From: Jiangella anatolica
GTDB taxonomy: Bacteria; Actinomycetota; Actinomycetes; Jiangellales; Jiangellaceae
Assembly: GCF_003236295.1 (NCBI RefSeq)
Contig: NZ_POTW01000074.1
Location: 1 to 34,595, forward strand
Reading direction: 5' to 3'
DNA length: 34,595 nt
Position numbers and translations under genes: made by a program. Below, piece by piece: positions 15,419 to 23,800 of the stretch (positions are counted from its first letter, which is position 1; each line of letters starts with the position of its first letter). The notes beneath the pieces are model-generated. The model saw only the letters and a program-made list of their open reading frames with translations, was not told where the DNA came from and did no database searches.

Positions 15419-16381
15419 ATGAACTTGTTCCGTTTGGTTCCTCTTGCGCTCGGGCTGACGGTGGCGCTGGCTGCCTGTGGCGGTGACGATGGTGACGCCG
15501 CGCCGGCGGCCGGCACGACCGACGCCGTCACCGTCGAGCACCAGTTCGGCACGACGGAGATCACCGGGGTGCCGGAGCGGATCGTCACCATCGACCTGCA
15601 GTGGACCGACGTCATGCTGGCGATGGGCGTCGAGCCGGTCGGGTACTCCGTCGACGCGTTCATGCCGGAGTCCGGCGTGCCGTGGCAGGAGCTGCCCGCC
15701 GACGCCGAGGCGCTGCCGCTGGTCGACGGCCCGCCGATCGAGCAGATCGCGGCGCTGGAGCCGGACCTCATCGTCGGCAGCTACTCGATCGCCGACCAGG
15801 GCGTCTACGACCAGCTCGCCGCCATCGCGCCGACCATCGCCGGCGCGGACGAGCTGCAGGTGACGCCGTGGCAGGACCTCGTGCGGACGGCGGGGGAGAT
15901 CCTCGGCGAGCCGGACCGGGCCGAGGAGGTCATCGAGGACGTCGACGGCGAGGTGGCCGCGGTCGCCGCGGCGCTGCCCGGGCTGGCCGGGAAGACGTTC
16001 TCGCTGGCCCAGTACGTCGTCGGCGACTCGATGTACGTGGTCGCCGACGAGCAGGACGGGTCCAGCGTGTTCTTCCAGCAGCTCGGCATGACGATGTTCC
16101 CGGCGGTCCGGGACGAGGGCGAGGCGACCGGCGACACCCGGATCATGGTCAGCCCGGAACGCTCCGACCTGCTCCGCGCCGACCTGCTGGCGTTCCTCGT
16201 CAACGGCGGCGACGAGAGCGACCTCGCCGACATCGCCGGCTTCGACCAGCTGCCCGGCACCGTCGCGGTGCTCGACTACCCGACCATCGTCGGGCTGAAC
16301 ACACCGTCGCCGCTGTCGATCCCGTACGCGCTCGAGCAGCTCCGGCCCTACCTGGACGAGGCCGCCGGTGCGGCGGGGTGA
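15419..16381 (+). CDS. Iron-siderophore ABC transporter substrate-binding lipoprotein
   Basis: A 320-residue FepB/FecB-type binding protein. Residues 1-20 are a lipoprotein signal ending in ALAAC (Cys20), so it is anchored outside the membrane. The mature part follows the Periplasmic_BP_2 plan: GVPERIVTIDLQWTDVMLAM after the linker, LEPDLIVGSYS, then the long connecting helix, and a C-terminal half ending in PYALEQLRPYL. It would deliver a ferric siderophore to a permease, but no permease or ATPase lies in the window. The iron box upstream and a siderophore-interacting reductase overlapping its 3' end by 14 nt support the function. Confidence 0.9.
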   Translation: MNLFRLVPLALGLTVALAACGGDDGDAAPAAGTTDAVTVEHQFGTTEITGVPERIVTIDLQWTDVMLAMGVEPVGYSVDAFMPESGVPWQELPADAEALPLVDGPPIEQIAALEPDLIVGSYSIADQGVYDQLAAIAPTIAGADELQVTPWQDLVRTAGEILGEPDRAEEVIEDVDGEVAAVAAALPGLAGKTFSLAQYVVGDSMYVVADEQDGSSVFFQQLGMTMFPAVRDEGEATGDTRIMVSPERSDLLRADLLAFLVNGGDESDLADIAGFDQLPGTVAVLDYPTIVGLNTPSPLSIPYALEQLRPYLDEAAGAAG

Positions 16382-17264
16382 GGCGCCGGCGCCGCGGGCG
16401 CCGGGCGTGCGGCTGTCGTACAGCGAGCTGCGGGTCGTCGGCTGCGCGCCGGTGACGCCGCGGATGCGCCGGATCACGCTGGCCGGCGACGGGCTGGCGG
16501 AGTTCACGCCGGTCGCGCCGGACCAGCAGGTCAAGTTGTTCTTCGCCCGTGACGGCGGGGTGCCGGAGGTGCCCGACCCGCCGGCCACCCTGGACGACGT
16601 CGGGAGCTGGTACCAGCGCTATCTGGCGATGCCGGACGAGCGGCGGCCGTGGCTGCGGACGTACTCGATCCGCCGGCACCGGCCCGCAGCGCGCGAGGTG
16701 GACGTCGACTTCGTCCTGCACGGCGACGGTGCGCACTCCGGACCGGCGGCGCGGTGGGCGGCGTCGGCGCGACCGGGAGACGTCGTCGGCCTGTACGGGC
16801 CGTCGGTGAGCCACCTGCGCACGCCCGGCCGGCACGACTGGAAGCTGTTCGCCGGCGACGAGACCGCGCTGCCGGCGATCGGCGCGTGGCTGGAGTCGCT
16901 CGGGCCGGACGAGCGCGCCGTCGTCGTGGCCGAGGTGGCCGGGCCGGCGGAGGAGCAGCGGCTGGAGTCGGCGGCGGACGTGACGGTGGTGTGGCGGCAC
17001 CGCGGTTCCGTCGCCGCCGGGCGGTCGTCTGCGCTGATCGACGCCGTCCGCTCGCTCGACTTCCAGGACGGCGAGCCGTTCGCCTGGGTGGCCGGCGAGG
17101 CGTCGGCCGTGCGCGCCGTCCGGCGTCACCTTGTCGACGAGCGCGGGCTGGACCGGCGGTCGGTCGCGTTCGCCGGCTACTGGCGGGTCGACCGCACGCA
17201 CGACGACGCCTCGACGGCGGAGGAGCTGGCCGACCACGCCGAGGAGGCGGCCGCGGCCGGCTGA
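16368..17264 (+). CDS. Siderophore-interacting protein, FAD-dependent ferric reductase
   Basis: A 298-residue protein of the ViuB/SIP family. The flavin-binding segment is LRTYSIRRH (residues 96-104; family RxYTxR), preceded by PDQQVKLFF. The NAD(P)H-binding half includes WKLFAGDETALPAIGAWLE and ends with FAWVAGEAS and SVAFAGYWR, both family hallmarks. It reduces Fe(III) in imported siderophores to release iron in the cytosol. GTG 16368 lies inside the upstream gene (14-nt overlap), so translation is coupled and the gene shares the iron-box promoter. Confidence 0.93.
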   Translation: MRRGEAPAPRAPGVRLSYSELRVVGCAPVTPRMRRITLAGDGLAEFTPVAPDQQVKLFFARDGGVPEVPDPPATLDDVGSWYQRYLAMPDERRPWLRTYSIRRHRPAAREVDVDFVLHGDGAHSGPAARWAASARPGDVVGLYGPSVSHLRTPGRHDWKLFAGDETALPAIGAWLESLGPDERAVVVAEVAGPAEEQRLESAADVTVVWRHRGSVAAGRSSALIDAVRSLDFQDGEPFAWVAGEASAVRAVRRHLVDERGLDRRSVAFAGYWRVDRTHDDASTAEELADHAEEAAAAG

Positions 17265-17289
17265 CGACCTGCCTCCCGCCGGCGTCAGC
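17260..17289. terminator. Hairpin spanning both convergent stop codons
   Basis: Arms GCTGACG (17260-17266) and CGTCAGC (17283-17289) around a 16-nt loop. The left arm holds the siderophore reductase stop, the right arm the metI stop. It could terminate on both strands. Confidence 0.5.
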
Positions 17290-17947
17290 GGTGCAGCGCC
17301 TTGCGGGCCAGCCAGTTCCCGAGCAACTGGGCCAGCTGCACCATGCCGATGATCACCAGCACGGTCACCAGCGTGACCTCCCAGTTGAACCGCTGGTAGC
17401 CGTAGACGATGGCGAAGTTGCCCAGCCCGCCGCCGCCCACGTAGCCGGCCAGCGCGGACATGTCGACGATGCCGATCAGCAGGAACGTGTAGCCGAGGAT
17501 CAGCGGCGCGAGCGCCTCCGGCACCAGCACCGTCACCAGGATCCGCAGCCGTGACGCGCCCATCGCCCGGGCCGCCTCGATCACGCCCGGGTCGGTGGCG
17601 ACGAGGTTCTGCTCGACGATGCGGGCGGTGACGAACGTCGCCATGATCGCCATCGCGAAGATGACCGCGTCGTTGCCGATGGTGGTGCCGACGACGGCCA
17701 GCGTCACCGGACCGACCGCGGTGATGAAGATGATGAACGGGATCGGCCGCACCACGTTCACCGCGACGTTGAGGATCGTGAAGACGACGACGTTCTGCAG
17801 CAGGTTGCCGCGCCGCGTCGCATACAGCAGCACGCCCAGCACCAGCCCGAGCGCGCCGCCCACGCCCACCGTCACGCCGACGATGTACAGCGTCTCGCGC
17901 ACCGACTCCCACAGGATCGGCGACAGCTCCGACCAGTCGCGGTTCAT
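17285..17947 (-). CDS. metI: Methionine ABC transporter permease MetI
   Basis: A 220-residue permease with five to six hydrophobic segments. The EAA-loop coupling region reads EAARAMGASRLRILVTVLVPEA (residues about 126-147), the contact site for the MetN ATPase. The features VNVVRPIPFIIF and SALAGYVGGGGLGNFAI are hallmarks of MetI. It forms the inner-membrane channel for methionine and related sulfur compounds. Its start overlaps the metN stop by ATGA. It is the last gene of metQ-metN-metI. Confidence 0.95.
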   Translation of the reverse strand: MNRDWSELSPILWESVRETLYIVGVTVGVGGALGLVLGVLLYATRRGNLLQNVVVFTILNVAVNVVRPIPFIIFITAVGPVTLAVVGTTIGNDAVIFAMAIMATFVTARIVEQNLVATDPGVIEAARAMGASRLRILVTVLVPEALAPLILGYTFLLIGIVDMSALAGYVGGGGLGNFAIVYGYQRFNWEVTLVTVLVIIGMVQLAQLLGNWLARKALHR

Positions 17948-18975
17948 GCCGGCACCCCCGCCGTCCCCAGGTCTTCGACATCCGTGCGCGAGCGCAGGTC
18001 GGCCAGCAGCGCGTCGATCGCCGCGTCGGAGCCGGTCAGCTCCAGCGTCAGCGAGCCGAACGGGCGCTCGTCGATCTCGGTGATGCCGCCGAACACGATC
18101 GTGCCGTCGACGCCGTGCGCCCGCAGCGCCGCGGTGACGTCGACGCCGGCCTCGCGGATCGTGACGGTGACGATGCGGCCCGGGTGCCGGTGCCGCAGCC
18201 GCTCCAGCGCCTCCGGCGTCGGCCGGTCCTTCAAGGTCGTCGCGACGAACCGGCGGGTGGCGCGCTCGCGCGGCGCGGCGAACACGTCGTACACCGGGCC
18301 GTGCTCGATGACCTTTCCGTCCTCCATGACGGCGACCCGGTGCGCGAGCGAGCGGATCACGTCCATCTCGTGCGTGATGACGACGACGGTGACGCCCAGC
18401 TCGCGGTTGACGCGGCGCAGGAGCGCCAGCACGTCCTGCGTCGTGTCCGGGTCCAGCGCGCTGGTGGCCTCGTCGGCGAGCAGGATCCGTGGCTCGGTCG
18501 CGAGCGCCCGGGCGATGCCGACGCGCTGCTTCTGCCCGCCGGACAGCTGCCGCGGGTACGCCTTCGCCTTGTCCGCGATGCCGACGTAGTCCAGCAGCTC
18601 GGCGACCCGTGCCGCTCGCTTCGCCTTCGGCCAGCCCGCGACCTTCAGCGGGTACGCGACGTTGCCGGCGACGGTGCGCGAGTTCAGCAGGTTGAACTGC
18701 TGGAACACCATGCCGATGCCGGCGCGCACCCGCCGCAGCTGCGACTCGCCGAGTGCGGTGACGTCCTGGCCGTCGACGAGCAGACGGCCGGACGTCACCG
18801 GCTCCAGCGCGTTGACCAGCCGGACCAGTGTGCTCTTGCCGGCGCCGGAGTAGCCGATGACGCCGAAGATCTCACCGGCCTGGATGTCCAGCGTCACGCC
18901 GTCGACGGCGCGGACGGCCGTGGCGCCGGACCCGAAGACCTTGCCGACGTCCTGGAAGCTGATCAGGGGTGCCAT
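17944..18975 (-). CDS. metN: Methionine ABC transporter ATPase MetN
   Basis: A 343-residue ATPase. Walker A is GYSGAGKST (about 38-46), the signature is LSGGQKQRVGIARALA (about 143-158) and Walker B is ILLADEATSALDP. After residue about 265 comes a NIL domain (RIVTVTIREAGV to LADLRSRTDV), the C-terminal regulatory domain that binds methionine and causes transinhibition. It powers import with MetI and MetQ. Its start overlaps the metQ stop by one base (TGATG). Confidence 0.96.
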   Translation of the reverse strand: MAPLISFQDVGKVFGSGATAVRAVDGVTLDIQAGEIFGVIGYSGAGKSTLVRLVNALEPVTSGRLLVDGQDVTALGESQLRRVRAGIGMVFQQFNLLNSRTVAGNVAYPLKVAGWPKAKRAARVAELLDYVGIADKAKAYPRQLSGGQKQRVGIARALATEPRILLADEATSALDPDTTQDVLALLRRVNRELGVTVVVITHEMDVIRSLAHRVAVMEDGKVIEHGPVYDVFAAPRERATRRFVATTLKDRPTPEALERLRHRHPGRIVTVTIREAGVDVTAALRAHGVDGTIVFGGITEIDERPFGSLTLELTGSDAAIDALLADLRSRTDVEDLGTAGVPA

Positions 18976-19859
18976 CAGTGCGCGGCGAGGTCCGTCTGGA
19001 TGCCGTCGAGGATCTCCGACAGCTCATCGGCCGGGTTGTCGGTGAACACCGCCGTCCCGCCGGACGCCGCCGCCGACGCCTCCTCGACCTCGGGCGAGTG
19101 GTACAGCTCGACCAGCCGCTGGAACGTCTCGTTGTCGACGTCCTCGGACCGGGCCACCCACACGTTGATGTACGGGCGCGCGCCGGGGGAGTCGGCCTGG
19201 TCCTGGTACAGCGCGTCGGCCGGCTCCAGTCCGGCGTCGGCGACGAAGTCGTTGTTGATCACCGACGCGTCGACGCTGTTCAGCGCGGTGGCGGTCTGCT
19301 CGGCCGCGACCGGCGTGACGGTGACCCGCGACTCCTCCTCGACGACGTCCGACGGCAGCGACGTCGAGCTGCCGCCGCCCTCGAGCGTGATCAGGCCGGC
19401 GTCCTGTAGGACGAGCAGCGCCCGGGCCTGGTTGGTCTCGTCGTTCGGGATGGCGACCTCGCCGCCCTCGGGGATGTCCTCCAGCGACTGGTGCTGCTGC
19501 GAGTACAGGCCGAGCGGGTAGATCGCGGTCGCGCCGATCGGCGCCAGGTCGTCGTCGTTCGACACGTTGTACGCGGCCAGGTACTGCAGGTGCTGGAACT
19601 GGTTGAGGTCCAGCTGGCCCTGGGACAGCGCCGGGTTGGGCTGCGTGTAGTCGGTGAAGTTCACCAGCTCCACGTCGATGCCCTCCGCGTCGGCCAGCTC
19701 GGTGAAGGCGGACCAGTAGTCCTCGCTGGCGCCGACCACGCCGATGCGGATCGGGTCGCCGGACTCGCCGGACGCGGTCTCGGTGTCGCCCCCGCCGCAG
19801 GCGGCCAGGACGACGGCGGCTCCGGCGAGTGCGACGGGCAGAAGGATGCGGCGGTTCAT
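18975..19859 (-). CDS. metQ: Methionine-binding lipoprotein MetQ/NlpA
   Basis: A 294-residue NlpA-family binding protein. The signal ends in VVLAAC (Cys21), so it is a surface lipoprotein. The mature protein carries IRIGVVGAS, VNFTDYTQPNPALSQGQLDL and NQFQHLQYL, the family's substrate-pocket strings, then PNDETNQARALLVLQDAGLI. It binds L- or D-methionine or a related sulfur compound. AAGGAG lies about 11 nt before the ATG. It is the first gene of the operon and follows a Met/Cys-rich leader ORF, indicating attenuation by sulfur amino acid supply. Confidence 0.94.
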   Translation of the reverse strand: MNRRILLPVALAGAAVVLAACGGGDTETASGESGDPIRIGVVGASEDYWSAFTELADAEGIDVELVNFTDYTQPNPALSQGQLDLNQFQHLQYLAAYNVSNDDDLAPIGATAIYPLGLYSQQHQSLEDIPEGGEVAIPNDETNQARALLVLQDAGLITLEGGGSSTSLPSDVVEEESRVTVTPVAAEQTATALNSVDASVINNDFVADAGLEPADALYQDQADSPGARPYINVWVARSEDVDNETFQRLVELYHSPEVEEASAAASGGTAVFTDNPADELSEILDGIQTDLAAH

Positions 19860-19903
19860 GGCGTGCGGGTCTCCTTGATGAGGGGTGTGGTTCGCGCGGG
19901 GTG

Positions 19904-19920
19904 GGCGCGGGGAGCGCGCC
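19904..19920 (-). other. Hairpin between leader ORF and metQ
   Basis: On the minus strand GGCGCG, 5-nt loop, CGCGCC, located 76 nt after the leader ORF stop and 45 nt before metQ. It may be the terminator half of an attenuator; no T-run follows. The competing structure was not resolved by eye. Confidence 0.3.
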
Positions 19921-19995
19921 GGATCGCGGGCTCGACGGGGTCGCCGGCCGGTTCCGGGGCGGGGGCCTGCCGCTCGAGGTGACGTCAGGACGGCG

Positions 19996-20094
19996 TCAGC
20001 AGCAGCGGCAGCGGCGCATTCGCGGACACATGGACATGCCGCGGCGGGCAGCCGTGGTCATGATCCGGGCGGTGTCGGACGAAGCGCGAGACAT
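19996..20094 (-). CDS. Met/Cys-rich leader peptide upstream of metQ
   Basis: A 32-codon ORF 136 nt upstream of metQ on the same strand. The last 13 residues are MSMCPRMRRCRCC, giving three Met and four Cys codons just before the stop. GGAAG lies about 9 nt before ATG 20094; ATG 20061 (MTTAARRG) is an alternative start. In mycobacteria, short ORFs ending in Cys codons act as cysteine-responsive attenuators of downstream operons. Here the amino acids match the sulfur role of metQNI, so ribosome stalling when charged tRNA-Cys or tRNA-Met is scarce probably raises transporter expression. Too short for most gene finders. Confidence 0.68.
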   Translation of the reverse strand: MSRASSDTARIMTTAARRGMSMCPRMRRCRCC

Positions 20095-20113
20095 GCGTCC
20101 ATCTTCCCGACTG

Positions 20114-20124
20114 GACCAATGGTC
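20114..20124. promoter_or_regulatory. Small palindrome before the metQ leader
   Basis: GACCAATGGTC has 5-bp arms (GACCA/TGGTC on the minus strand) and lies 20 nt upstream of the leader ORF, where the promoter should be. No known sulfur-regulator consensus is matched convincingly. It could be chance. Confidence 0.25.
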
Positions 20125-20217
20125 TCCAAATAGAACGCGATGTGATCTCATATAGTGAACAAAACTCGATCAGAATGTGAGACGAATGACTCCGGGTGCG
20201 CTGGCACAATGCGTCCC

Positions 20218-21435
20218 ATGCTGAGTGATCCACCCGACGCTGTCGAGCTCGTGGCGGGCAGCGATGCGATCGTGGCGCAAGGGCCGGACGCCCCGGCCGA
20301 CGTGGCCGCGGCGGTGACCGCGGCACTCGAGTCACTGAAGGACGCGGCGGCGAACCAGGAGCGGCTGCGCGACCGTCTCCAGGCCTGCGTCTACCTGGCC
20401 GTCGCCGTGGCCTGGCTGAGCATCGGGGTGGGGCGCGAGTGGTCGAAGCCGTGGTCGTTGGGCCGGTTGTGGGGCGTCGTGGCTCCGCTGGCCGCGACGG
20501 CGTGGGTGGTGGTGGCCGTCGCAACCGTGACGATCGTCGTGCTCGTGGTGGCGCGGGTGCTCCGGCGCCGGCCCGGGCAGTCCACCAGATCGGCCCTCGT
20601 CGAGCTGTGGGAGTCCCTCGGGCGCTGGCCGGCGGATCGCCAGGATCAGTGGTTCACGATGTTCGGGCCACTGCTGAATGTCGCGGTGCTTGGTGTCGCG
20701 GGCCTGTTGCTGTGGCCCCGTGAGCCGTACGGCGACTGGAATGTCGTCGTGCCGCCGCTGGCGACCCTGGTGGTGCTCGTCGGACTCCTGTTGTTCGCGG
20801 AGGCGGTCGTGCTGGCGCGGCACCGTCAGGACCCGAGGGACGGCCTCGTCACCGCCCTCTACCAGACCTATGCGACCGCCGTCGGGGTCGCCATCAGGGC
20901 GGACGACCCTGTCGACTGGCGGCAATCGCGCCGCACGCGTGCCGATCTGGCGGGCGGGCTGAACCAGGCCGCGGTCGCCGCCGAACGCGACTTCAAGCGC
21001 ATCGCACCGCACCGACTCGCCGATGCCCGGCGGCGGGCCGGCGACCTTGGGCAGCGAATCGCGGTCGGCTTCCGGGTGCACGCGAACGCCGTCCTGCTCG
21101 GCGGGCGGGATCGGGACGATCGGCTGGCGCCCGCCCTGGCCGCCGGGCTGGTGGCGGCCAGCCGCGGTCAGTGGGAGGAGCTGGCCAGGGCCGAGCCGGC
21201 CAGCGCCGCGCCGCGCATCGTCACGTCGATCGTGCGGCGTGTTTTCTTCGCCGCCCTGATCGTCGGCGCCGGCCTGCTGCTGTCAGCGCCGTTCGACGAC
21301 GCTGGGATGCGGGAGCAGCTGCGCGGCGTCTTCCTCACCGCCGCGCTGCTCCCGCTCATCACTCCGCGCAGCGCGCTCCAGCAACTGGGCGACCAGGTGC
21401 GGCAGACGGCGGGTCTGGCATCCTGGCCGGCGTGA
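20218..21435 (+). CDS. Membrane protein of unknown function
   Basis: A 405-residue protein (from ATG 20218). Residues about 15-60 form a charged helical segment (ALESLKDAAANQERLRDRLQ). Two hydrophobic helices follow near 60-120 (VYLAVAVAWLSIGV; WVVVAVATVTIVVLVVARVL), two near 150-205 (LLNVAVLGVAGLLLW; LVVLVGLLLFAEAVVLA), then a soluble region with Arg-rich helices, and a final pair (FFAALIVGAGLLLSAPF; LRGVFLTAALLPLI). No family recognised. CACAAT lies 7 nt before ATG 20218; earlier in-frame starts at 20155 (GTG) and 20209 exist. The GTGA overlap with the lactonase gene links the two. Confidence 0.72.
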   Translation: MLSDPPDAVELVAGSDAIVAQGPDAPADVAAAVTAALESLKDAAANQERLRDRLQACVYLAVAVAWLSIGVGREWSKPWSLGRLWGVVAPLAATAWVVVAVATVTIVVLVVARVLRRRPGQSTRSALVELWESLGRWPADRQDQWFTMFGPLLNVAVLGVAGLLLWPREPYGDWNVVVPPLATLVVLVGLLLFAEAVVLARHRQDPRDGLVTALYQTYATAVGVAIRADDPVDWRQSRRTRADLAGGLNQAAVAAERDFKRIAPHRLADARRRAGDLGQRIAVGFRVHANAVLLGGRDRDDRLAPALAAGLVAASRGQWEELARAEPASAAPRIVTSIVRRVFFAALIVGAGLLLSAPFDDAGMREQLRGVFLTAALLPLITPRSALQQLGDQVRQTAGLASWPA

Positions 21436-22301
21436 CGAGCCTCCTCGCCGACGGCGCCGCGCTGGAGCGGCTGCACACCGGGACCGAGTGGGCGGAGGGC
21501 CCGGTCTGGCTGCCGCGCACCCGCCGCGTCCGGTGGAGCGACATCCCCAACGACCGCATCCTCGAGTGGGACGCCGCCACCGGCGAGACGACCGTCTACG
21601 GCAGCGGCGTCGAGTACACCAACGGCCGCACCCTCGACCTCGACGGCCACGTCGTGCAGTGCTCGCACGGCCGGCGCCGGGTGGAGCGCGACGTCGACGG
21701 CGTCGTCACCCCGATCGTCGACGCCGTCGAGGGACGGCGGTTCAACTCGCCGAACGACGTCGTGGTGGCCGGCGACGGCGCGATCTGGTTCACTGACCCG
21801 CCGTACGGCATCCACGAGAGCGGCCGCGAGGGTCACCCGGGCGAGCAGGAGTACGGCGGCTGCCACGTCTTCCGCTACGACGAGGCCGGCGGCGAGCTGC
21901 GCGCCGTCGTCACCGACATGGCGCACCCGAACGGCCTCGCGTTCTCACCCGACGAGTCGGTGCTGTACGTCGCCGACACCGGCGGGGACGAGCGCGCGAT
22001 CCGCGCCTACGACGTGGTGGACGGGCGGTGCGGGAACGGCCGGATGCTCGCGACGGTGCGCCCGGGCGCGGCCGACGGCATCCGGGTCGACGAGGAGGGC
22101 CGGGTATGGGCGTCCAGCGCCGACTCGGTCCAGGTCTTCACGCCCGGCGGCGAACGGATCGCCGTCGTGCCGATGCCGGAGACCGTCTCGAACCTCTGCT
22201 TCGGCGGCGACGACGGCACCGAGCTGTTCATCACCGCCACCACCAGCCTGTACCGGATCCGCACCGCGACGCGGCCGGCGCCGCGGCACAGCGCCGCCTG
22301 A
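21432..22301 (+). CDS. SMP-30/gluconolactonase-family hydrolase
   Basis: A 289-residue six-bladed beta-propeller of the SMP-30/gluconolaconase/LRE family. The metal ligands are placed as expected: Glu in EWAEGPVWLP (residue about 20), Asn in FNSPNDVVV (about 105) and Asp in VLYVADTGGDE or PNGLAFSPDES (about 165). The DGAIWFTDPPYGI string is characteristic. These cytosolic enzymes hydrolyse sugar lactones and some organophosphates with a divalent metal. GTG 21432 overlaps the preceding stop (GTGA), so translation is probably coupled. Confidence 0.92.
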   Translation: MTSLLADGAALERLHTGTEWAEGPVWLPRTRRVRWSDIPNDRILEWDAATGETTVYGSGVEYTNGRTLDLDGHVVQCSHGRRRVERDVDGVVTPIVDAVEGRRFNSPNDVVVAGDGAIWFTDPPYGIHESGREGHPGEQEYGGCHVFRYDEAGGELRAVVTDMAHPNGLAFSPDESVLYVADTGGDERAIRAYDVVDGRCGNGRMLATVRPGAADGIRVDEEGRVWASSADSVQVFTPGGERIAVVPMPETVSNLCFGGDDGTELFITATTSLYRIRTATRPAPRHSAA

Positions 22302-22317
22302 GCGGCCGGCTCAGCGG
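22294..22317. terminator. Hairpin spanning both convergent stop codons
   Basis: Core arms CTGAGC (22298-22303) and GCTCAG (22309-22314), extended by CCG/CGG with one bulge. It contains the lactonase TGA and the stop of the small minus-strand gene. Confidence 0.5.
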
Positions 22318-22514
22318 TCGGTCTCGGCCTCGTCCGCCGGCACCTCGGTCGGGACGCCCGGGCGATCCGTCGCGGCGGGGTCGTCGTCCGCGGGCGGCTC
22401 GGGGTCGTGCCACTCCTCGGCCCGGCTCGAGCGGTTGCCGCGGATCGTGCCGTCGAGCTCGTGCTCGAGCTGGTCGTCGGCGCGCGGGCCGTGCTTGTCG
22501 CTGCCTCGTTCCAT
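22311..22514 (-). CDS. Conserved small hydrophilic actinobacterial protein
   Basis: A 67-residue, highly charged protein beginning ERGSDKHGPRADDQLEHELD, with RAEEWHDPEPPADDDP in the middle. I recall similar short proteins (RGSDKHxPRxDDxL...RAEEWRxPEP) as common in actinomycetes, function unknown; this is from memory, not a search. GGAGGGAT lies 5 nt before ATG 22514, a strong start. No membrane segment; probably disordered and cytosolic. Confidence 0.72.
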   Translation of the reverse strand: MERGSDKHGPRADDQLEHELDGTIRGNRSSRAEEWHDPEPPADDDPAATDRPGVPTEVPADEAETDR

Positions 22515-22582
22515 CGAGATCCCTCCTGCCCGTCGCGTACCCAGGAGGGGCCGCCGCACGCGGGTGCCGGCGGCGACGCCGG

Positions 22583-22765
22583 TCAGCCGGCCGGGGTGTC
22601 GATCTCGATCAGCGTGGAGTCGCCGCCGTCGGTGGTGCTGTTGAGCAGCAGGACCGACGTGGCGATCATCAGAACCGCCATGACCAGCAGGACGGCGAGC
22701 TTGGCCGGTGACCCGGACTCGATGAGCCAGCGGCGCAGCGGCGCCAGAGCGTGGCGGTCGGACAT
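22583..22765 (-). CDS. Small single-helix membrane protein
   Basis: A 60-residue protein with a charged N-terminus (SDRHALAPLRRWLIESG), one hydrophobic segment (KLAVLLVMAVLMIATSVLLL) and an acidic outer tail (TTDGGDSTLIEIDTPAG). GAGAGGAC precedes ATG 22765. No family recognised. It may be an envelope or modulator peptide. The frame extends upstream without a better start. Confidence 0.55.
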   Translation of the reverse strand: MSDRHALAPLRRWLIESGSPAKLAVLLVMAVLMIATSVLLLNSTTDGGDSTLIEIDTPAG

Positions 22766-22858
22766 CGTCGTCCTCTCGTCATGGGGCAGCGTCATTCCGA
22801 CCGTATGTGACAAGGACCCTGACTGGCCAGCCAAATCCGTAGATCTGGAAGAAACCGC

Positions 22859-23800
22859 TCACTTCCGGCCGTATGCCTCGCCGAGCTCCGCCAGTAGGCC
22901 GGCGGTCAGCGGGCGTCCGGCGATCGCCGTCAGCGCCGCGCCCCACCCGGCCACGAAGTAGTCCCATCCGTCGACGGCGGCCACGCCCGAAGCGCGGGCG
23001 TCGGCGAGGAACGTCAGGTCGCCGCGGTAGTTGAAGTCCCAGGCCGTCGCGGTGGCGGGGAGGACGGCGCCGGGCGGCAGCGGCGAGCCGGGCCGGTCCT
23101 TGCCCAGCCCGGTCGCGTTGACGACGAGCGCGCGGGGCGGGATCGGCGCCGGCGTGCGGGCGTCGAGGAGGGTGAGCCGGTCGGTGACGCCGCAGCGCTC
23201 GGCGGTCGTGCGCAGGGCGGCCAGCGCCGCCTCGTCGGTGTCGAGGACGGTGACGCGGTGACGTCCGCCCCGCACCGGCGCGCCCGCGGCCAGCGTCGCC
23301 TCGACGTCCAGCGTGAGCGCCAGCAGCAGCGCCGTCCCGGCCCCGCCGGCCCCGTACACGACGACGTCGCCGGGTGCGGGCCGGTCGCGCAGGACGGCGG
23401 CGAGGGCCAGCGGGTCCCGTGCGTGCGCGTCGACGCCGTCGCCGGCGCGGACCAGCGTGTTCACCTCGTGCATCAAGGTCGTCAGCGCGTCGGTACGGCG
23501 GAACCTCCCTGTCGCCGCGCGGTGCAGGCGCAGCTTGTGGCTGGTGACGACCGCCCCGGCGACGCGCGGGTTGGCGGCGATCGCCTCGACCAGCTCGACA
23601 TAGGCCGGCGCGGGCGTCGTCGGCGGGAGGTCGAGGCCGCGCAGCGTCCAGTCCGGCCGGCTCAGCGTCGCGGCCCAGGCGGGAAACGCGTCGTGGCTGC
23701 GCGACCCGCCCGTCGCGACGCCGACGAACACCACCAGCTCGCCCGGCCCGGCCCAGCGCCGCACTCCGCCGACGTCGATCAGCCGGTCATCGTGCGTCAT
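22859..23800 (-). CDS. Shikimate dehydrogenase-like protein, atypical
   Basis: A 313-residue protein with the AroE two-domain plan. The N-terminal half has AGAVVTSHKLRLH (residues 81-93), where Lys89 fits the catalytic Lys of AroE's NVTxPxK, although the Pro is Ser-His here. The Rossmann half begins VVVYGAGGAGTALLLAL (about 147-163), and ALVVNATGLGKDRPGSPLP matches AroE's NATPxGM region. The usual GxNTDxxG is replaced by GDGVDAHARD, so it may act on something other than shikimate. The leaderless-type -10 TAGGTT lies 6 nt before the ATG. It is not an obvious part of an aromatic-amino-acid operon. Confidence 0.8.
   Translation of the reverse strand: MTHDDRLIDVGGVRRWAGPGELVVFVGVATGGSRSHDAFPAWAATLSRPDWTLRGLDLPPTTPAPAYVELVEAIAANPRVAGAVVTSHKLRLHRAATGRFRRTDALTTLMHEVNTLVRAGDGVDAHARDPLALAAVLRDRPAPGDVVVYGAGGAGTALLLALTLDVEATLAAGAPVRGGRHRVTVLDTDEAALAALRTTAERCGVTDRLTLLDARTPAPIPPRALVVNATGLGKDRPGSPLPPGAVLPATATAWDFNYRGDLTFLADARASGVAAVDGWDYFVAGWGAALTAIAGRPLTAGLLAELGEAYGRK

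Follow-up and report, generated by a model that had tools for sequence, protein, structure and literature searches.

A putative leader peptide with Met and Cys sensor codons upstream of metQNI in Jiangella and other actinobacteria

The subject of this study is a short open reading frame (ORF) which precedes the metQNI methionine importer operon in Jiangella anatolica, within a 34,595-nucleotide (nt) stretch of contig NZ_POTW01000074.1, here called the window. The three transporter genes are tightly packed, with an overlap of one base between metQ and metN and of four bases between metN and metI; metN and metI are assigned at the family level only, since their NCBIfam scores (TIGR02314 and NF008049) lie under the curated cut-offs. 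The MetQ protein of the window is 86-95% identical to that of ten other Jiangella genomes, the value being 95% for J. rhizosphaerae, J. endophytica and J. aurantiaca. The short ORF starts at position 20094 of the minus strand, its stop codon lies 136 nt before the metQ ATG (19859), and its peptide ends in MSMCPRMRRCRCC, with three Met and four Cys among the final 13 residues and four Cys among the final 10 codons. An earlier sequence-only reading of the window had proposed that this ORF is a leader peptide which controls metQNI according to the supply of sulfur amino acids, and the 32-codon length, the residue counts and the distance to metQ which it gave all proved exact when the region was read again.

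Is this ORF more than one of the many short frames of a GC-rich genome? Loci with metQ were collected through searches of the genus and the family, from one set of named genomes, in which 80 of 117 relatives were retained, and from 393 genomes drawn across the class; of the latter, 161 had MetQ at E 1e-40 and gave, among the matches listed, the 100 loci that were read. Operon order was assigned by tblastn. A leader was scored where a short ORF at most 500 nt upstream had at least five Met and Cys residues, with at least one of each, among its last 18. Two loci at contig ends with too little upstream sequence (L011 and L036) were dropped before counting. Such an ORF was found in 63 of 196 metQNI or metNIQ loci, compared with 20 of 3920 dinucleotide shuffles and four of 196 reverse-complement regions. 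After ten same-species duplicate loci were removed, it was present in 53 of 186 loci, among which unrecognised duplicates between genomes may persist, and this is a lower bound because the criterion overlooks five loci (L212, L213, L223, L225 and L230) of the Streptomyces-like group f17 in which a leader is visible in the alignment. The leader occurs in all ten Jiangella loci, in all six of the Phytoactinopolyspora type, in both Cellulomonas loci, in nine of nine of the Isoptericola/Oerskovia/Antribacter/Puerhibacterium type, in three of four Sanguibacter loci and in one metagenome-assembled genome of the Cellulomonadaceae; f17 contributes 14 of 19 loci, a further group, f15, seven of 20, and among 62 other loci only L200 has it. 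It accompanies both operon layouts, as metQ comes first in most loci and metN in the 19 f17 loci (fourth batch) and in 16 of the 20 f15 loci. The tails differ widely among families (...MMCCRAGLMPGGCCR, ...RCMCRMCAF, ...MGCTCRCRMCSH and ...MSMCGTSMRRCCM), and the insertions and deletions inside the ORF measure 3 and 6 nt. The only one of twelve Jiangella genomes without a MetQ match, G006, has no leader either, and its three best DNA matches sit in long coding frames. No second copy of the leader was found in the genome of the window, the next best match being 21 bases. Judged by these comparisons, the leader ORF is genuine and conserved; the sequence-only reading had made its case depend on whether close relatives keep the ORF, and they do.

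The two kinds of sensor codon appear to be maintained together. We selected ORF tails by one residue only (at least three in 15), which avoids selecting for the residue tested. Among tails chosen for Cys, 32 of 41 had at least two Met, compared with four of 202 shuffled and none of seven reverse-strand tails, and among those chosen for Met, 32 of 33 had at least two Cys, compared with two of 20 shuffled and one of two reverse-strand tails; the loci are related, so these counts are not independent events. In the alignment of 16 Jiangellaceae leaders the columns Met21, Cys26, Met30 and Cys33 are invariant, as are the start codon, Arg3 and Ala15, and between genera the Jiangella leaders agree at 312 of 378 Met and Cys residues as opposed to 580 of 1424 other residues. 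The strain of the window is slightly atypical, with one ATG codon fewer and two TGC codons more than the nine other Jiangella, whose leaders end in ...MCPMRMRRCR or similar. From this pattern it is likely that one leader senses both Met and Cys.

Many of the leaders also share a rare codon. A sensor ATG is immediately preceded by an in-frame CGA in 39 of the 53 leaders, and the tails have no CGA codons besides these 39; Jiangella and f17 supply much of this number, so that the cases are not independent events. The Sanguibacter and Cellulomonas leaders have no CGA-ATG. Across eight ORFs of the window, CGA makes up four of 191 Arg codons. Leader Cys codons are divided almost evenly between TGT (83) and TGC (82), while TGT accounts for one of the nine Cys codons in the same eight ORFs. 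The CGA before the sensor ATG may either slow the ribosome or act as a signal in the RNA.

The sequence-only reading had pointed out a purine-rich site, GGGAAGATGG, before the ORF, and the view that this is a ribosome-binding site needs correction. Nine of the ten Jiangella loci have the arrangement TTGGAG-17 nt-GAAGAT-6 nt-ATG, and four of the six Phytoactinopolyspora-type loci have TTGAAG-17 nt-CATGAT-7 or 8 nt-ATG; in the f17 loci TTTACT precedes the leader ATG by 6-7 nt. In Streptomyces lividans TK24, a short ORF named metL (SLIV_29928, MSTTSDRTPATEATTTPGARCMCRRMCAF) upstream of metNIQ is described from RNA-seq data as methionine-dependent, and its start is reported to be leaderless (PMC8079986). 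Because the hexamers fit in two genera and because of this reported leaderless start, GGGAAGATGG is probably a promoter -10 hexamer and not a ribosome-binding site. A consensus promoter scan of the leader region scored no promoter, the candidate hexamers included. Between the two hexamers lies a palindrome, of which the form GACC-N3-GGTC is present in the promoter spacer of eight of the ten Jiangella and three of the six sister-genus loci, and a regulator may act at this place.

The leader RNA is predicted to form a conserved, covarying hairpin within the ORF, whose 3' strand takes in two sensor codons, one ATG and one TGT, and the margin of a further ATG. Its energy was matched by none of 200 codon-column shuffles of the 16 leaders and by one of 200 for Jiangella alone. 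In a MAFFT alignment 93.8% of 336 cells were paired, with 14 cells in five pairs changed on both sides, and the covariation of 0.200 was higher than in any of 500 shuffles (mean 0.118) or any slid version of the structure (at most 0.065); these statistics are biased in favour of the hairpin, since it was derived from the sequences on which it was tested. The f17 loci, together with three f15 loci (L236, L243 and L245), have a different near-invariant block, consisting of the sensor codons, the stop, GGGCCCC and a hairpin CTCGC-N-GCGAG (CTCGCGCCCCGAAGCGAG), for which no Rfam match was obtained in the five loci scanned (L213, L220, L230, L243 and L245). Just before metN, the f17 loci L211-L230 also have a near-invariant segment GCAC-T-CGACAGTGACGGAA, complementary to the leader sensor codons TGTCGA..GTGC; RNAalifold pairs this segment with the sensor codons, and the core of the pairing is without covariation. 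The coordinates of all features are collected in the table.

Table. Features of the metQNI locus in the J. anatolica window
Feature	Coordinates	Strand	Basis or remark
Leader ORF	19996..20094	-	32 codons + TGA; peptide MSRASSDTARIMTTAARRGMSMCPRMRRCRCC; sensor region = last 13 codons
Predicted hairpin within leader ORF	20014..20087	-	RNAalifold and pair counts, 16 leaders
CGA-ATG	20017..20022	-	rare Arg codon directly 5' of sensor Met codon; 39/53 leaders
Candidate -10 hexamer GAAGAT	20101..20106	-	6 nt before leader ATG; TTG(G/A)AG-17-(GAAGAT or CATGAT), 9/10 Jiangella, 4/6 sister-genus loci
Candidate -35 hexamer TTGGAG	20124..20129	-	17-nt spacer; weak match to consensus, inferred
Palindrome GACCA-T-TGGTC (GACCATTGGTC), candidate operator	20114..20124	.	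between candidate -35 and -10
Spacer, C-rich and G-poor	19860..19995	-	leader stop to metQ start, 136 nt; C-over-G skew 0.33
AAGGAG, metQ ribosome-binding site	19871..19876	-	sequence; identical in 10/10 Jiangella
metQ, substrate-binding lipoprotein	18975..19859	-	PF03180, E 4.8e-67
metN, ATP-binding protein with NIL domain	17944..18975	-	TIGR02314, E 6.9e-96; PF09383, E 8.8e-12
metI, permease	17285..17947	-	NF008049, E 6.1e-42

A known riboswitch, for S-adenosylmethionine (SAM) or another ligand, was considered and rejected, as no Rfam family reached its gathering score in the window, and in 13 related loci the matches were to signal recognition particle (SRP) RNA or tRNA only, in four of them. 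In genomes of the Isoptericola and Sanguibacter type (L044, L046, L054 and L151) metQ is preceded by a tRNA gene and the gene for the small SRP RNA. In eight f15 loci (L236, L242, L243, L244, L245, L247, L248 and L249) metN is immediately preceded by a second small ORF that is conserved and ends in SH(A/L)P(Y/F)(P/H)PG(T/S/R)...; this Pro-Pro-Gly-like end is a possible stalling signal, and one of these peptides had no NCBIfam match.

A leader of a different composition is found at the cys operon. We read eight stretches around sulfur genes, four of which carry one cysH group (PF01507), and in all four of these Jiangella loci a leader MA(P/R)C..CCPSF(L/H)CC(W/S) without internal Met sits 168-183 nt before the following ORF, which we take to encode sulfite reductase. 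As the leader of the cysH-group loci has no internal Met, a Jiangella cell would have two kinds of leader, one with Cys codons at the cys operon and one with both Met and Cys codons at the methionine importer. A GTG overlapping the stop of the Cys leader opens a frame SRRHVDYGRMDSMLCLAF, the same by eye in four Jiangella (L309, L312, L314 and L316), and there are possibly tandem, perhaps coupled, leader peptides before this operon. Cys-rich tails at PF01053 loci were also considered; the matches were short GTG frames, long frames or frames on the opposite strand, none of them convincing.

What would this leader do? We consider it fairly probable that the ORF encodes a regulatory leader peptide for metQNI and that slowing of the ribosome at its Met and Cys codons raises expression of the transporter. 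A leaderless transcript would be translated from its first AUG, and when charged tRNA-Met or tRNA-Cys is scarce, the ribosome would lose speed on reaching the Met and Cys codons towards the 3' end of the ORF. The slowed ribosome would hold the leader hairpin open and cover the leader stop and the beginning of the spacer. Expression of the transporter would then go up, so that methionine-type compounds could be imported when either sulfur amino acid runs short. For the output step we favour early termination of transcription, probably by Rho, within the C-rich spacer, an event that the paused ribosome would block; the alternative is sequestration of the metQ start. That Rho-dependent termination is the likeliest output in Jiangella is our guess, and it fits because most loci with a leader have a spacer rich in C and poor in G. 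The C-over-G skew of the spacer is 0.31-0.42 in ten Jiangella, and the median for leader loci is 0.26, compared with 0.11 for 90 high-GC loci in which no leader was detected and -0.02 for the DNA upstream of the leader in the leader loci themselves, in a test which ignores relatedness and whose leaderless set includes the five f17 loci with a visible leader. RNAalifold gave no convincing structure for the Jiangella spacer.

Several results weigh against this proposal. The Phytoactinopolyspora-type spacers are not C-rich (skew 0.01-0.14, six loci), which contradicts one Rho mechanism for all leaders. No terminator-like site was found in 19800-20300, and the hairpin with a U tract that a classical terminator/antiterminator attenuator would need was not seen there. 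Universal pairing of the leader with the ribosome-binding region was likewise rejected, since duplex energies between the last 42 nt of the leader and the 60 nt before the start were like those of shuffled sequences in the 63 loci, of which three, two of them from one species, reached p<=0.05, the start codons of several metN-first loci being poorly placed in this test. Nor does a stalled ribosome seem to open the start, for masking scarcely altered the predicted unpaired fraction around it in 41 of the 53 leader loci: in Jiangella it was 0.40 without a ribosome, 0.38, 0.42 and 0.47 with one stalled at three different places and 0.52 with one at the stop, and on going from free to stalled it changed from 0.42 to 0.50-0.52 in four Phytoactinopolyspora-type loci, from 0.55 to 0.53-0.55 in 14 of the Cellulomonas, Isoptericola and Sanguibacter type and from 0.45 to 0.42-0.44 in 13 f17 loci. 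The evidence for the hairpin is also uneven. At least as many two-sided pair changes were seen in 53 of 500 shuffles, and the outer helix contains none. The RNAalifold covariation term speaks for the structure in the sister genus alone (-2.00) and against it in Jiangella (+0.45) and in all 16 leaders taken together (+0.66), and L040, folded as a single sequence, does not form the hairpin. By the criterion used throughout, the leader is missing from all 33 Bifidobacteriaceae loci, all 13 of Microbacteriaceae-like genera and 13 of 20 f15 loci, so the operon can do without it; it was also not found in four metQ-first Pseudonocardia loci or in three loci of Paraoerskovia, Ruania and Serinibacter. 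Lastly, two points qualify the comparison with the cys operon: a frame overlapping the end of the Cys leader encodes, read by eye, a Met- and Cys-containing peptide, VSRRHVDYGRMDSMLCLAF, and the same criterion gave no convincing Cys leader in 14 cysH loci of the f17 cys operon (the single match, L332, was unconvincing), so that this control holds in Jiangella only. The attenuator of the sequence-only reading survives in part: the conserved ORF before the operon and the jointly kept Met and Cys codons near its stop stand, while the downstream structure which pausing was supposed to expose or relieve found no support in terminators, Rfam elements, pairing between leader end and start or start access.

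Could only one of the two amino acids be sensed, the codons for the other being kept for RNA structure or by descent? An RNA constraint could fix a codon, since two invariant codons, ATG at column 21 and TGT at column 26, take part in the base pairing of the leader hairpin, and metL was read as methionine dependent by its authors (PMC8079986). Both kinds of codon persist, however, across lineages with very different peptides, and there is turnover within the Met/Cys set, the strain of the window having one Met codon less and two Cys codons more than its relatives, so that we find a single-amino-acid sensor unlikely. It might also be that the hairpin and CGA-AUG form an RNA element acting in cis, or an arrest peptide, which answers for example to SAM or a protein and for which translation is secondary. 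The compensatory changes in the hairpin, the occurrence of CGA-AUG in 39 of 53 leaders, the TGT at column 26 in 16 of 16 Jiangellaceae and, in f17 and the three f15 loci, the near-invariant block running from the sensor codons beyond the stop into the CTCGC...GCGAG hairpin all speak for it. Set against these are the reading frame, preserved through indels of 3 and 6 nt, the recurrence of the Met/Cys composition without the nucleotide motif in Sanguibacter and Cellulomonas, and the lack of an Rfam match at the leader, and we regard such an element as more doubtful than a single sensor.

Two further explanations carry little weight. Cys and Met both bind metals as soft ligands, and the peptide could itself be functional, for instance as a small metal-binding or redox-sensing protein; this general chemistry is all that recommends the idea, to which our analysis adds nothing, whereas the spacing of Cys varies between families and no domain match was found for the window peptide in NCBIfam or Pfam or for 5-6 relatives in NCBIfam, which makes it very improbable. 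As for a chance ORF, short frames are common in GC-rich DNA and 65 ORFs of at least 25 amino acids overlap 16000-23500, but conservation, the shuffles, the joint Met and Cys codons and the covarying hairpin refute it, and we give it practically no credence.

How does the Jiangella leader relate to systems already described? The Rho-dependent TnaC leader of E. coli, a tryptophan-dependent arrest peptide, is similar in having its sensor position by the stop, followed by C-rich RNA, and differs in that no arrest motif is established in Jiangella. The ilvL and thrL leaders also put several kinds of sensor codon into one peptide, thrL sensing Thr and Ile, but they serve branched-chain amino acids or Thr/Ile and use terminator hairpins, and we know of no leader with a Met/Cys sensor pair. 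Canestrari et al. reportedly showed in 2020 that the mycobacterial Cys leaders are cysteine-responsive. These leaders are leaderless Cys-rich upstream ORFs (uORFs) described by Shell et al. (2015; PMC4633059), and PMC13236596 presents the 2020 work as one on translation attenuation in M. smegmatis; leader peptides for cys genes were proposed by Seliverstov et al. (2005; PMC1262725), who cite the tna operon as a model. Like all of these, the Jiangella leader is a short ORF that has its sensor codons next to the stop, is followed by sulfur genes and shows no obvious terminator. It too ends in a cluster of Cys codons, but Cys is not its sole enriched residue and no cysteine genes follow: Met is enriched as well and the operon is a methionine importer. 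The uORFC-8-2 of cysS in Rhodobacterales likewise has its Cys codons within a conserved stem and differs in having tandem Cys codons only, an intrinsic terminator with a U run and the cysS gene downstream (PMC8632094).

The closest parallel is metL. Both are short ORFs before a methionine importer operon, with Met and Cys codons near the stop and no clear intrinsic terminator, and the leaderless start reported for metL would have its counterpart in Jiangella; they differ in the N-terminal peptide and in gene order, metN being first in S. lividans and metQ in Jiangella (PMC8079986). The passage on metL mentions methionines and threonines and not cysteines (PMC8079986), and the leader hairpin was examined in Jiangellaceae only. 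On actinobacterial methionine operons, the 2005 comparative study reported finding no conserved RNA structures (PMC1262725). The sequence-only reading had called the sensing of two amino acids unusual, which holds in part: leaders for several amino acids are known, such as IlvL with Val, Ile and Leu codons and a terminator hairpin (PMC8079986), and we found no report of a Met/Cys pair. A search of open-licence papers likewise turned up no account of a conserved leader that joins Met and Cys, of the leader hairpin or of CGA-AUG. The kind of leader is thus already known from metL and the mycobacterial Cys uORFs, and the mixed Met/Cys set, the hairpin and CGA-ATG are apparently unreported.

A broader proposal, in which we have somewhat less than even confidence, is that these ORFs make up a widespread actinobacterial class of leaders in which one run of the ribosome reads both tRNA-Met and tRNA-Cys, with a hairpin in the ORF and a fixed slow CGA codon tuning the pause, so that import would be set by total sulfur amino acid status, separately from the Cys leader that precedes the cys operon. 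If this is true, the single annotated metL and the mycobacterial Cys leaders would come together in one family sensing two sulfur amino acids, and the leader would be a simple system in which to measure the share of each codon type in one pause. It would, besides, offer a route to the regulation of methionine uptake in actinobacteria.

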